From Gemmataceae bacterium (GTDB lineage Bacteria; Planctomycetota; Planctomycetia; Gemmatales; Gemmataceae), in contig JAKEHV010000463.1 in the NCBI GenBank assembly GCA_022614915.1, forward strand, positions 1 to 38,634: 38,634 nt of DNA. The letters are read 5' to 3'. This document shows positions 24,032 to 36,608 of this stretch, piece after piece. Below the pieces are notes generated by a model that searched no databases, was not told the origin of the DNA, and was given only the letters and a program-made list of their open reading frames with translations. The position numbers were made by a program, and so were the translations under genes. Each line of letters begins with the position of its first letter. Within the stretch, counting starts at the first letter, position 1.

Positions 24032-24043
24032 TGCGGTCGTCCT

Positions 24044-24165
24044 GAAAAGGTGAAGGGGTGAAGGGGTGAAAGGGTGATGGGGTAACGCGTGGATACGAAC
24101 GGTTTCGAGTGATATCACCTTTTCACCCTCTCACCCTTTCACCCCTTCACCCTTTCCCCTTTCAC
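24044..24165. repeat. Facing G-rich/C-rich short-repeat arrays with a ~30-bp core
   Basis: The left array (24044-24083) repeats units such as AAGGGGTG. The right array (24113-24165) repeats their complement, such as CACCCTTT. A short unique core (24084-24112) lies between them. The arrangement matches the arrays around the four-helix-bundle gene at 25107 but has no gene inside. The right arm runs into the 3' end of the connector-like gene. Confidence 0.85.
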
Positions 24166-25053: not shown

Positions 25054-25361
25054 CGTGAAGGGTGAAAAGGTGAAAGGGTGAAAGGGTGACAAGGGGGGGT
25101 GACTCGATGCCGACGAAGATTACGCATCACTGGCAATTGGACGTTTACAAGAAGGCGTTCAAGAGCGCCACTCGAATTCATGAATTGTCGAGAGCTTTCC
25201 CGAAAGAAGAACAATACTCTCTGACAAGTCAGATACGAAAAGCATCACGTTCCGTATGTGCACAAATCGCAGAGGGATGGCGCAGGCGCCGTTACGCTGA
25301 GTTGGAGAAAGAGTGAATGACATTCACCCCTTCACCCTTTCACCCCTTCACCCTTTCATTC
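25054..25361 (+). mobile_element. Putative small element: inverted short-repeat arrays around a four-helix-bundle gene (truncated)
   Basis: The left array (about 25054-25090) has G-rich units like GTGAAAGGGTGAAAGGGTGA. The right array (about 25319-25361) has the complementary C-rich units. Between them lies one plus-strand gene fragment (25107-25316), opposite in direction to the phage genes on either side. The arrays, gene and strand arrangement mirror the element at 28675-29177, which uses a different repeat family. No transposase is present. Mobility is an inference. Confidence 0.55.
25107..25316 (+). CDS. Truncated four-helix-bundle (S23/bIVP family) protein
   Basis: The product is 69 residues from ATG 25107 (MPTKITHHWQLDVYKKAFKS). 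The first two helices match the family pattern: LDVYKKAFKSATRIHELSRA, then FPKEEQYSLTSQIRKASRSV and CAQIAEGWRR. Family members are about 110-130 residues, but this one stops after RRRYAELEKE, just as the right repeat array begins, so helices 3 and 4 are missing. Relatives occur as intervening-sequence proteins in some 23S rRNA genes and as accessory Avd proteins of diversity-generating retroelements. Neither context exists here. It lies head-on against the phage genes. Confidence 0.8.
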   Translation: MPTKITHHWQLDVYKKAFKSATRIHELSRAFPKEEQYSLTSQIRKASRSVCAQIAEGWRRRRYAELEKE

Positions 25362-25859: not shown

Positions 25860-26066
25860 AGGGGTCAGGAGTCAGGGAACAGGAGTCAGGGTCAGGGGAC
25901 AGAGGTCGGGGAGGGAATTTCAAATTGCAAATTGCAAATTGTAAATTTCAAATTGACGAACGCGCGACACTTCTTGCAATTTGCAAATTGAAATTTGCAA
26001 TTTTCAATTTGAAATTCCCTCGGTTAACTGCGCGGCGCCGTGGGGCAGGCTCTGGGCCTGTCCCAC
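25860..26066. repeat. Repeat-rich gap between capsid and the next gene
   Basis: From left to right the gap holds GGTCAGGAGTCAGGG-type tandem units (25860-25911) and an A/T-rich array pair. The left array (25914-25955) begins GGAATTTCAAATTG. The right array (25974-26019) ends CAATTTGAAATTCC, with an 18-bp core between them. A GTGGGGCAGGCTC/GGCCTGTCCCAC palindrome follows at 26039-26066. No gene was found from 26067 to 26246. Confidence 0.8.
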
Positions 26067-27557: not shown

Positions 27558-27609
27558 GACAAACCCTTTCTGTGAAACGTGGGAATGGAGATGTACTCTG
27601 TGCTCTGTG

Positions 27610-27730
27610 CTCGTTCCCAGGCTCCGCCTGGGAACGCAATCCTCGAGGCTCTGCCTCGGCGCGTTTCGACAATGGCGGCATAGAGGCGGAGCCTCTCGGA
27701 AGGCGTTCCCAGGCGGAGCCTGGGAACGAG
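27610..27730. repeat. 121-bp palindromic element with perfect 27-bp arms upstream of the capsid gene
   Basis: The arms 27610-27636 and 27704-27730 are exact reverse complements, each itself containing CCCAGGCTCCGCCTGGG-type hairpins. The inner part has a second nested pair (CGAGGCTCTGCCTCG and AGAGGCGGAGCCTCT). It encodes the SAWERE-type repeat peptide when read through. It lies between the protease and capsid genes. Confidence 0.93.
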
Positions 27731-27778
27731 AAGTCTCGGACGTTCGCATGCCTCCTTTGTTTACTGTACAAATGTATC

Positions 27779-28654
27779 TTATACCATGCCCCGATGTTTT
27801 TCAAAGGCCCGGTGCAAAGATTTGCAAAGTTTTTTTCGAAATCCCTCCGAGCCAAGCACGCGCAGCAGTCCTTCCACGCGCAGGAACGGAACACGATCCT
27901 CTCCGCGATGAACCAGCGTCGGCGCATCCGAGGATGGAGCGGCGTTGACCCGGTGCAGTGCCTTTTTGACTTCTTCCACGAGCGCGAAGGGCTGCATGGG
28001 TAGAAAGCAGCAAGCGTATTCAAGCAGCAGCCAGCGCGTGACAACAAAGCGCACCTTGTCCAGCCGCGGGTTCTTGGTGCGCTCCTGCTCCGTCGGGCTG
28101 TGCCGGTGCAAGGGTAAGAACCCGATCGACTTGCCGCGCAGCAAGCCCGCCTCGACAAGTTGGAACGCGGTGTCCGCAGGCCAATCCCCGCTCCAGTCGT
28201 CTGGACGCGGCGGGTACACCGTCTTGGCCTTCACGCCTGCGGGCTGGAAAGTAGCAGGCACACTCCGTGTGCCGTCCGCCAGCAACGGCACACGGAGTGT
28301 GCCTACTACACTGGAATCGCGCAGCCGCATTACCCGTCGCCACACGGACCGCCCCACCGGCGGCGTTGTGTACGAGTGATTGAGCGTTACGATCGGATTG
28401 AGCCGATAGATCGAATCGTCCATGCCGTCCGCCAACACGAGGTCGCCCAGGTGATCCGGCGATTCCACGGTGATCCAGGAAATGTCCGAGCGTTGGTCGG
28501 CGAGCAGCACCGAAACGCCGCGCTGCGTTGCCAAGCGCCTCGGCAAGAACGCGTCGTCCTTTGGGATCTGGGTGATTCGCGCGGCCAGCGCCTTGGCTTG
28601 GGCGTCGAGGAGAGGCAGGCCGACGGGACCTTCAATGAGGTTTTGCATGTTCAT
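27779..28654 (-). CDS. HK97-type prohead (capsid maturation) protease
   Basis: From ATG 28654 the product has about 291 residues; the Met two codons later is also possible. Probable catalytic residues of the herpesvirus-assemblin-like fold are His93 in VTLNHSYTTPPVGRSVW and Ser176 in LLRGKSIGFLP. The protease cleaves the capsid N-terminal segment during shell maturation, and the capsid gene lies directly downstream. Between the two catalytic residues (about 118-138) a palindromic repeat inserts GTLRVPLLADGTRSVP. If that loop is tolerated, the enzyme still works. If not, this is a decayed copy. The C-terminal 100 residues are basic and helical. The family is fairly sure, the activity is open. 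Confidence 0.85.
   Translation of the reverse strand: MNMQNLIEGPVGLPLLDAQAKALAARITQIPKDDAFLPRRLATQRGVSVLLADQRSDISWITVESPDHLGDLVLADGMDDSIYRLNPIVTLNHSYTTPPVGRSVWRRVMRLRDSSVVGTLRVPLLADGTRSVPATFQPAGVKAKTVYPPRPDDWSGDWPADTAFQLVEAGLLRGKSIGFLPLHRHSPTEQERTKNPRLDKVRFVVTRWLLLEYACCFLPMQPFALVEEVKKALHRVNAAPSSDAPTLVHRGEDRVPFLRVEGLLRVLGSEGFRKKLCKSLHRAFEKHRGMV
28251..28309. repeat. GTLRVP-type palindrome inside the prohead protease gene
   Basis: The arms 28251-28273 and 28287-28309 (GGCACACTCCGTGTGCC core) are complementary with one mismatch around a 13-bp loop. The element adds about 20 codons in frame. Confidence 0.93.
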
Positions 28655-28674
28655 GGGGTACCATTTCGTGAGTA

Positions 28675-29177
28675 TTTCAAATTGCAAATTGAAAATTGCA
28701 AATTGAAAATTGAAGATGGCTTGTCACCTAACTTTCATTGGAGGACATAATGTCGCCGGAAGTACTTTCGGAACGCCTGTTGGACTTTGGAGTCCGCGTT
28801 GGCAAGTTGGTTGATGCGCTGCCGGACACGCGCTTGGGCCGGCACGTCGGCGGACAAATCTTGCGGTGCGGCACTTCACCAGCTCCCAACTACGAAGAAG
28901 GATGTGCCGCGGAGAGCTGGGCGGACTTCGTTCATAAGCTCTCGATCGTCCTGAAAGAACTCCATGAATCACGCCATTGGCTCCGCTACCTCATGAAGGC
29001 CAAGCAACTGCCAGACAAACGCGTTCAACCACTCTGGAAAGAAGGCGATGAACTTTGCAGGATCATTGGCCAATCCCTCGTTACAGCAAAAGGAGTAAAA
29101 CACCCAAAAGGCGGCAGTTAGTCTTGCAAGTCCCGTGTTCAATTTGCAATTTGCAATTGACAGTTTTCAATTTGAAA
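28675..29177 (+). mobile_element. Putative small element: inverted A/T-rich arrays around an intact four-helix-bundle gene
   Basis: The left array (28675-28715) repeats CAAATTGAAAATTG-type units. The right array (29139-29177) repeats the complement (CAATTTGCAATTTG). One plus-strand gene with its own strong ribosome site lies between. The element separates the portal and protease genes, which are adjacent in HK97-type phages. Its right array encodes the last residues of the portal ORF. No transposase is present, so mobility is inferred. Confidence 0.6.
28750..29121 (+). CDS. Four-helix-bundle protein (S23/bIVP family), intact
   Basis: The product is 123 residues from ATG 28750. The upstream TTGGAGGACATA gives a strong GGAGG site, so the ATG is preferred to the in-frame TTG at 28738. 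Family features run along the whole length: SERLLDFGVRVGKLVDALPD, GRHVGGQILRCGTSPAPNYE, AESWADFVHKLSIVLKELHE and SRHWLRYLMKAKQL, ending in a fourth helix (LCRIIGQSLVTAK). Proteins of this fold form oligomers and bind nucleic acid in the Avd branch. The cellular role of stand-alone members is not known to me. It is convergent to the surrounding phage genes and likely transcribed on its own. Confidence 0.9.
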   Translation: MSPEVLSERLLDFGVRVGKLVDALPDTRLGRHVGGQILRCGTSPAPNYEEGCAAESWADFVHKLSIVLKELHESRHWLRYLMKAKQLPDKRVQPLWKEGDELCRIIGQSLVTAKGVKHPKGGS

Positions 29178-30426
29178 TGATGACTGGCTTCTCGCCCCAG
29201 TCCACCGCCGGCAGTCCGCGTGCACTGCGTACTTCGTTAATCGTCCGCACCCCGAGTCGAAGATCGGATGCTTCCTGCCGGAGTCCGAAGTCGCGGTTTT
29301 CCGGGGTCGGATCGTCCGAAGCCAGAAACAGCCGGCCGCTTGGATCGAAGAGCGGCACGAGCTGTTCGTTGAGTTTTTCGTCGCGGCGGCGCAGGCGCGG
29401 CCGGATCGCCAGCGTCTTGTGCAAGTGATCCGCCGCCTGCATGTTCGCGAGATTCGTGTCCCCCGAGAGAAACGGCAGCGGCACGTGAAAGGCGTTGGCG
29501 ATGTCCTCCTTGGTCGCCTTGATGTCGGCGAGCGCGGCCAAATCGCCCAACGATTGCGACAACTGCGTGACGTGAATCTTGCTGTCAGTAACGAGAGCCT
29601 GGCCCTGGCCGCGGCGCCGAAACCTCTCTTGAAACTGCGCTTCGAGCCGGTCGCGTTCGCCGGTCCCGAGCGTGCCTTCCGGCCCAATGATGGCGTTGGG
29701 CAAGCCGGCGTTGTCGTACAGCGACCGTTTCAGGGCCGCGTATTCCGAGGTGAGGTCGACTTGCTCGAAGCAGGCGCGTAAGGGCGACAGGCCTGACGTA
29801 TAAGGATCGCGCGGATCGGGAAAGCGGAAGTGAATGATGCGCTCCGGCGCGAACCGCTTTACTTCTTGGCCGCGGAATTCGTAGTAATCGACCAGCTTCG
29901 CGCTGTGCGACTCGCGCTTCGGCGTCACCAGGTGTGCGGGCAAGACATAGATGTTGCTGGGCACGTTCAGCATGGCGTCGAACTCGAGCAGCCAATACGC
30001 CGAGCCGTGCACTTCGAGATAGAGCTGCGTGAGTTCCCACAGATCAAAACTGTTGTGGACGGGATTGACCTGGCGCAGCAATGCCAGGAGCGGATGCTCG
30101 ATGACTTCCTCGACCTGACATGCGGAAGAAGATCGCAGAGAGAGTTTGCGCACGGTCGCGGGATCAAGTGCGCGCGTACGGCAACGCGGCGGCGGCTGGC
30201 CTTGGCCGGTCGCGACATAGAGCTTCGGCGGATAAGAAGCGCACACCGCGGCGTTGATGGAAGTACACGTCCAGGCAGTGTTCTTGAGCGAAGCCAATAG
30301 TTCGGCGGGAGTTGGCGAGCGATGCGCGCGATAGGCATCCAAAAACGTGTGCGCCGGCGTCGGCGGCAGGAACGCCGGCGCGGACTTGCGGCGAAACAGG
30401 CGCAGCAGGCGACGAAAGAGATTCAT
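29167..30426 (-). CDS. HK97-family phage portal protein
   Basis: The product is 419 residues. It has a basic N-terminus (MNLFRRLLRLFRRK), then TAWTCTSINAAVCASYPPKL, HPLLALLRQVNPVHNSFDLW, and LTQLYLEVHGSAYWLLEFD. The central motif AERIIHFRFPDPRDPYTSGL-like segment is followed by LSPLRACFEQV. Late features are ALADIKATKEDIANAFHVPL and SGDTNLANMQAADHLHKTLA. All are typical of portal proteins, which form the dodecameric ring at one capsid vertex. The last codons (GEKPVIISN) run into the A/T-rich array, so the original C-terminus may have been trimmed. No terminase gene precedes it. The gene upstream is a small unknown. Confidence 0.92.
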   Translation of the reverse strand: MNLFRRLLRLFRRKSAPAFLPPTPAHTFLDAYRAHRSPTPAELLASLKNTAWTCTSINAAVCASYPPKLYVATGQGQPPPRCRTRALDPATVRKLSLRSSSACQVEEVIEHPLLALLRQVNPVHNSFDLWELTQLYLEVHGSAYWLLEFDAMLNVPSNIYVLPAHLVTPKRESHSAKLVDYYEFRGQEVKRFAPERIIHFRFPDPRDPYTSGLSPLRACFEQVDLTSEYAALKRSLYDNAGLPNAIIGPEGTLGTGERDRLEAQFQERFRRRGQGQALVTDSKIHVTQLSQSLGDLAALADIKATKEDIANAFHVPLPFLSGDTNLANMQAADHLHKTLAIRPRLRRRDEKLNEQLVPLFDPSGRLFLASDDPTPENRDFGLRQEASDLRLGVRTINEVRSARGLPAVDWGEKPVIISN

Positions 30427-36526: not shown

Positions 36527-36566
36527 GCGTTCACCACAGAGCCGCAGAAAAGACCGGATTGTGCCT

Positions 36567-36608
36567 TTCAATTTGCAATTGAAAATTTGCAATTTTCAAT
36601 TTGAAATT
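36567..36608. repeat. A/T-rich short-repeat array without a gene
   Basis: TTTCAATTTGCAATTGAAAA and the following TTTGCAATTTTCAATTTG belong to the same family as the arrays at 25914-26019 and 28675-29177. The two halves face each other with essentially no core. Confidence 0.85.

Follow-up and report, generated by a model that had tools for sequence, protein, structure and literature searches.

The window analysed here, a stretch of 38,634 nucleotides from a Gemmataceae bacterium, carries among phage genes an intact gene of the S23 (23S_rRNA_IVP) family, enclosed by two arrays of short repeats in opposite orientation (Table 1). Its product matches TIGR02436 with 71.6 bits (cut-off 24) over profile positions 3-107 of 109 and PF05635 with 47.4 bits (cut-off 33.8), and family membership follows from scores above both curated cut-offs with most of the profile covered. 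The closest solved relative is 2RLD (E 4.8e-13). The arms formed by the arrays are 46 nt long, 85% complementary and separated by 413 nt, with a period of 7 and a 14/21 super-period, and the right one also encodes the C-terminal end of the portal protein (...IISN and the stop codon). No transposase was found between the arms by profile search: the S23 gene occupies this space, its sole family matches are PF05635 and TIGR02436, and no catalytic domain was found in it.

Table 1. Features of the window relevant to the S23 element and its relatives (position 1 is the first letter of the window)
Feature	Position	Strand	Basis
Gene-less inverted pair, unit AAGGGTGA / TCACCCTT	24042..24165 (24042-24083, 24115-24165)	+	predicted fold, z -7.8
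Left AAGGGTGA array of second S23 element	25057..25094	+	array scan
Truncated S23 gene of 69 aa (covers 1-53 of the 109 profile positions)	25107..25316	+	profile match
Right TTCACCCC array of second S23 element	25323..25358	+	array scan
Gene-less inverted pair, AATTGCA (unit of the intact element)	25914..26016 (25914-25954, 25974-26016)	+	predicted fold, z -7.6
Flanking gene, putative head maturation protease	27779..28654	-	weak profile matches only
Left (upstream) arm of the inverted pair, an array of AAATTGC/AAATTGA units (~7 bp)	28674..28719	+	arm pairing, period analysis, resampling
Ribosome-binding site GGAGG	28740..28744	+	read from the sequence
Intact S23 / four-helix-bundle gene, 123 aa (ATG at 28750, stop at 29121)	28750..29121	+	profile matches (TIGR02436, PF05635); 2RLD closest among solved structures
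Right (downstream) array, left unit in reverse complement; contains the portal stop codon and the codons before it	29133..29178	+	sequence, arm pairing
Phage portal gene flanking the element	29167..30426	-	PF04860, phrog_2662
Single unpaired AATTGCA array	36566..36608	+	array scan

An earlier note, made from the sequence alone, had described a plus-strand gene with a strong ribosome site, a four-helix-bundle product of S23 type, framing by two opposite ~7-bp arrays and a right array supplying the last portal codons, and all of this is borne out. The arm-to-arm alignment scores 28.5; first-order-Markov resampling of the flanks (2,000 draws) gave at most 15.0, and resampling only the arms 5,000 times never attained the observed score. 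In the predicted RNA fold the arms pair across the S23 gene (z -3.7). The same note had placed the gene between portal and protease genes, which stands for the portal gene; the gene on the other side, between the arm and a clearly matching HK97-type capsid gene, is a putative protease with weak matches only (phrog_80, E 3.6e-4).

The S23 gene is antisense to these flanking phage genes. A second genus (genome G004, locus L036) has an orthologue of it with 72% protein identity at this portal site, and this shared insertion implies that the window copy may predate the split of the two genera. At the portal-protease junction of relatives from IMG/VR, several states are found: gene-less arrays of other units (ATGACGA in L159 and L160, CCGCAGATT in L156), another hairpin (L155), absence of the array (L163, L164 and L166) and, in some relatives, other genes. 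A search with the window protein found no relatives of it in viral contigs, and S23 is nearly absent from the 50,697 cultured-phage records searched. Two palindromic repeats, GTTCCCAGGC...GCCTGGGAAC and GCACACTCCGTGTGCC...GGCACACGGAGTGTGCC, were also noticed at 27600-27735 and 28245-28310 of the window, the second of them in frame within the putative protease gene.

Three further inverted array pairs, absent from the earlier note, occur in the window at 24042-24165, 25057-25358 and 25914-26016. Taken together, the pairs of the window represent two unit types, each found once with S23 and once without. In the host genome, a 601-contig assembly covered by searches and sampled stretches, there are six S23 matches, all six of which lie by eye between inverted arrays with one unit per copy (AATTAGC, AATTGCA, AGGATTA, an A-rich unit, AAGGGTGA and a G+C-rich unit). 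An E. coli genome searched as a control gave no S23 match. Matches to AAATTG, the unit of the window's intact element, number 53 in the host genome, 19 in G015, 7 in G004, 5 in G013 and 1 in G014, with none in the 16 remaining relatives; the planctomycete G015 has its 19 matches with S23 undetected. The usual polarity of the arrays is not absolute, as window-unit pairs in the opposite, divergent order exist in the window's own genome (G000:C344:123-194 and G000:C457:4778-4837).

Beyond the host genome, the layout was assessed by aligning the 300 bp upstream of each S23 gene to the reverse complement of the 300 bp downstream, with a strict score of at least 16. This score is reached by 26 of 33 S23 loci of the host family (median 23.5, against a median of 9 for arms from different loci). 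The own partner arm ranks best of all in 28 of these 33 loci, and the sum of the arm scores was reached by none of 20,000 permutations. Similar proportions are found in loci from multiple phyla (59/77, median 20.5; 77 of 80 loci had enough flank), where the arms are mostly clean heptamer arrays, in Xanthomonadaceae (26/30) and on viral contigs (24/33), against 0/30 for PIN-domain control genes of the same genomes (score 9.0) and 0/123 for random placements. A period detector returned 7, 14 or 8 where it found a period and gave 0/60 in control flanks; it proved too strict for degenerate arrays, which is why arm-to-arm alignment was used instead.

Judged by these sequence comparisons, matched inverted arms are the general layout of S23 genes, and the question posed in the earlier note, whether arrays flank them more often than random genes, is answered in the affirmative. 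The contrary outcome that it had envisaged, a family whose members mostly lack arrays, did not materialize: some three quarters of the loci pass the strict score, and inverted arrays are visible by eye in several of 15 inspected loci with low scores or short flanks. About a quarter of the loci, in a material that consists in part of metagenome assemblies, are without arms in the strictest sense. A/T-rich arrays can align through composition, and their origin by chance, or from low-complexity sequence of an ordinary kind next to a small gene, was for this reason considered. It is refuted by the cross-locus, Markov and control-gene tests, and many arrays are G+C-rich, so that the probability left to it is practically nil. 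At two loci (L075 and L093) the arrays exceed 200 nt on each side and are of the GTGGACG and GTGAGTT/GTGAATG types.

The elements occupy mainly gene-gene junctions and sometimes lie in frame within genes. A host reading frame remains open across the whole element in 6 of 80 loci (L079, L081, L092, L110, L136 and L151), always in frame S23+2. Two of these, L136 and L151, come from different phyla and occur at the same insertion place in the same kind of gene. In three planctomycete genera (L018, L020 and L385), S23 copies or remnants sit just upstream of a nuoE-like gene that appears by eye to be the same in all three, a further recurrent junction. A scan for 23S motifs over the loci up to L202 gave a single locus, in which the motif is 2 kb away from S23.

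The different states of one site are best seen at the junction of accB and accC, which holds 16 of 30 Xanthomonadaceae S23 loci, the genes being named from their sequences; carA-carB is another operon junction with an element. In its empty state, found in some 43 genomes, the accB-accC junction measures 3-13 bp; in its filled state, found in 26 genomes, S23 lies between arrays and the junction measures 433-532 bp. Gene-less inverted arrays occupy it in four genomes: G061 and G052, as well as G119 and G067, where they have the unit of the S23 that the genome in question carries elsewhere. In G131, the arrays and both ends of S23 are kept and the middle is deleted. Sequence comparison thus reveals empty and filled states of a single junction together with a derivative that has lost S23 by deletion. 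The alternative raised beforehand, that related genomes would all share the insertion with no empty site, does not apply at accB-accC or at the phage portal-protease junction, even though G004 shares the insertion of the window. When empty and filled accB-accC sites were compared by eye, no clear target-site duplication emerged, because the arrays start near the stop codon and end at the start codon. REP-like double palindromes were seen at this junction in S23-less Xanthomonadaceae (L228, L258, L235, L247, L231, L259, L225 and L237). Speaking against a spreading element, several S23 copies have long been passed on by vertical descent, namely the accB-accC copy in 26 genomes and the portal-site copy in two genera.

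The two arms of an element also change jointly. At accB-accC, both arms consist of GGGAATC in some genomes and of GGGATTC, GTGAATC or GTGATTC in others. Among 25 orthologues of this site, the mean fit of an arm to its own partner is 22.3, compared with 15.6 for the partner arm of an orthologue, a difference reached in none of 20,000 permutations. At the portal site of L036, both arms have changed and are now identical over 39 nt (39/39). Joint change is what would be expected of a device acting in RNA, in which the arm stem is processed in transcripts, for instance by RNase III as in the intervening sequences (IVS) of 23S rRNA. Gene-less hairpins would then be sites of operon processing or attenuation, and S23 a host-selected RNA-binding partner rather than a selfish gene. 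The pairing of the arms in predicted folds, the operon-junction positions at accB-accC and carA-carB and the cleavage of the Coxiella IVS stem by RNase III (PMC4990558) are in keeping with such a device. However, the window copy runs antisense to its phage neighbours, and RNA processing alone leaves the repeat arrays, the genome-specific units, the in-frame insertions within genes and the patchy presence unexplained, so that this reading is rather improbable.

A genome-wide population of gene-less arrays with the unit of the resident S23 goes beyond what the earlier note had foreseen. The doubled unit GGGAATCx2 occurs 86-244 times per genome in four Xanthomonas whose S23 has GGGAATC arrays, and ten unrelated S23-bearing genomes give one match in total. 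In a sample of 99 Xanthomonadaceae genomes (44 with S23, 55 without), the median number of GGGATTCx2 and GGGAATCx2 words per genome is 53 with S23 versus 0 without. At least ten GGGA[A/T]TCx2 words are present in 28 of the 44 and in 5 of the 55 (Fisher p 8e-9, Mann-Whitney p 2e-10, uncorrected for phylogeny), and many of the S23 genomes poor in these words carry S23 of another unit. The genome G097, in which the S23 arrays are of the AGGAACG type, contains AGGAACGx2 84 times; the S23-bearing G037 contains it 18 times and each of the other 97 genomes at most once. On a tree of AccB/AccC there are six independent pairs, of which about 3-5 run in the same direction and about 0.1 in the opposite one (p 0.06-0.25), which agrees with the counts but falls short of significance with so few pairs. 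Uncorrected for phylogeny, the arrays are nearly absent from genomes without S23. Arrays despite undetected S23 occur in G046, G066, G074, G083, G131 and the planctomycete G015, and deletion of S23 explains one alone of these.

Comparable populations appear in planctomycetes, where unbiased stretches were scanned with an array filter that was loosened after the first pass. G010, with four S23 matches, has 17 gene-less pairs in 800 kb; G004 has 11 pairs in 215 kb and G009 has 6 in 180 kb, both counts including S23-bearing elements; the one pair of G001 in 400 kb is its only S23 itself; and the S23-less G008 has no inverted pairs in the 400 kb scanned. When only gene-less pairs resembling some S23 arm in the set are counted, the unit is that of an S23 of the same genome in 9 of 12 pairs in G010 and 3 of 6 in G004 (pooled 12/18, binomial p 3e-9). 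The fourth, truncated S23 of G010 has a TGAGCCA unit, as do two otherwise unmatched gene-less pairs. In Xanthomonadaceae, an inner AGAGC motif is common to gene-less and S23 copies, and apart from it the loops of the gene-less copies are mostly unrelated. Some of these loops (L295 and L303) contain what appears to be the native terminator of the preceding gene. Unrelated loops, some with apparent native terminators, show that the gene-less copies did not arise by plain copying of a single master. The 20 gene-less pairs read in Xanthomonadaceae were chosen as plus-then-minus and therefore do not by themselves prove polarity; no opposite-order pairs within 1 kb were found among the matches listed in the GGGA[A/T]TC and AGGAACG scans of this family.

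Commonness of gene-less pairs and unrelatedness of their loops would also be expected if S23 merely inserted into pre-existing arrays, produced by polymerase slippage and hairpin formation, whose loops serve as landing sites in the way that IVS sit in hairpin loops of 23S rRNA (PMC4990558). Yet genomes without S23 in the same families are mostly free of arrays, most S23-less accB-accC sites are array-free junctions of 3-13 bp, and gene-less units match the S23 of their own genome. This explanation is already disfavoured by these observations and is held to be unlikely.

The S23-coding IVS of 23S rRNA genes, known from Coxiella and Leptospira, are considered selfish or mobile, with an unknown mechanism (PMC4990558). 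Like them, the window element has a PF05635/TIGR02436 homologue between complementary, stem-forming ends. It differs from them, as do nearly all loci considered here, in lying outside rRNA and between protein genes, and the ends of the present loci are arrays of changing heptamer units accompanied by a genome-wide gene-less population. A parallel in organization is the REPIN/RAYT system, in which one or a few vertically inherited genes lie in inverted repeats and dispersed gene-less hairpins match their flanks (PMC3116915). RAYT is a Y1 (HUH) tyrosine transposase, whereas S23 is a four-helix bundle, and this difference in the protein excludes the S23 element from that system; moreover, its repeats are tandem heptamer arrays instead of single REP palindromes, and its loops are not conserved. 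Absence of a transposase between the window arms likewise sets the element apart from insertion sequences and MITEs.

The repeats themselves have been described before. The GGGAATC repeats of Xanthomonas (Rehm et al. 2015, PMC4692102) have the same unit as the arrays around Xanthomonas S23, and convergent inverted GGGAATC pairs were reported as '70 cases in Xcc and 75 in Xac' (PMC4692102). The heptamer repeats of Nostoc, GGGGA(C/T)T (Rehm et al. 2015), and of Beggiatoaceae, TAACTGA, are related known systems. In these papers the heptamers are treated as simple sequence repeats, quadruplex-forming or regulatory, whereas here they are linked to S23; a term search of the Xanthomonas/Nostoc and Beggiatoaceae repeat papers found no mention of S23 or of a helix bundle. 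No paper linking S23 with heptamer arrays was found in a literature search that left aside most subscription journals and all preprints.

A further relationship exists with diversity-generating retroelements (DGRs), whose Avd protein shares fold and superfamily with S23, PF05635 and Avd being structurally homologous (PMC10053308). S23 could accordingly play the part of Avd while a reverse transcriptase acting in trans copies the hairpin RNA, and a self-priming hairpin RNA would yield matched arms. Against this, any RVT_1 reverse transcriptase was found in only 10 of 44 S23-bearing Xanthomonadaceae genomes, which makes a requirement for reverse transcriptase unlikely and this route very improbable.

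The S23 layout and the gene-less arrays, in combination with the lack of a known enzyme, point to a class of spreading DNA that has so far gone unrecognised. The window copy is probably one of a widespread family that consists of a short-unit (mostly 7-bp) array, an S23 gene and a reverse-complement array, with gene-less arrays of the same unit as non-autonomous relatives, as REPINs are to RAYT. The idea of a transposase-less mobile unit, put forward in the earlier note, is supported by the layout and the site states; since no movement was observed, we infer that the unit is mobile from these two lines of evidence. The elements would thus have spread, with the S23 protein as the presumed cause.

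How this could work is more tentative. S23 might be the factor acting in trans in a new class of mobile DNA of bacteria, a suggestion given somewhat less than even chances; it would recognise genome-specific heptamer arrays and would spread and homogenise inverted-array hairpins with no transposase, recombinase or reverse transcriptase of its own. As an Avd homologue, S23 may bind either the hairpin or the arrays in single-stranded form, as DNA or RNA, and once bound it could bring host replication or repair enzymes to copy or re-insert the hairpin. Fold-back copying and slippage might then extend the arrays and keep both arms alike. As a catalytic domain was looked for in S23 and not found, the host would need to supply the chemistry. 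Two predictions ensue: the array unit that an S23 recognises should be the one present in its genome, and deletion of S23 should stop the formation of new arrays.

The S23 element joins three loose ends, namely the role of the S23/IVP proteins, a family of very wide occurrence, the abundance of heptamer repeats (PMC4679880, PMC4692102) and the origin of the 23S IVS (PMC4990558). If S23 is indeed a trans-acting factor, both the excess of heptamers long noted in bacteria and the way in which the 23S IVS arose would be accounted for, and an element that spreads without a known mobility enzyme would represent a new mechanism.
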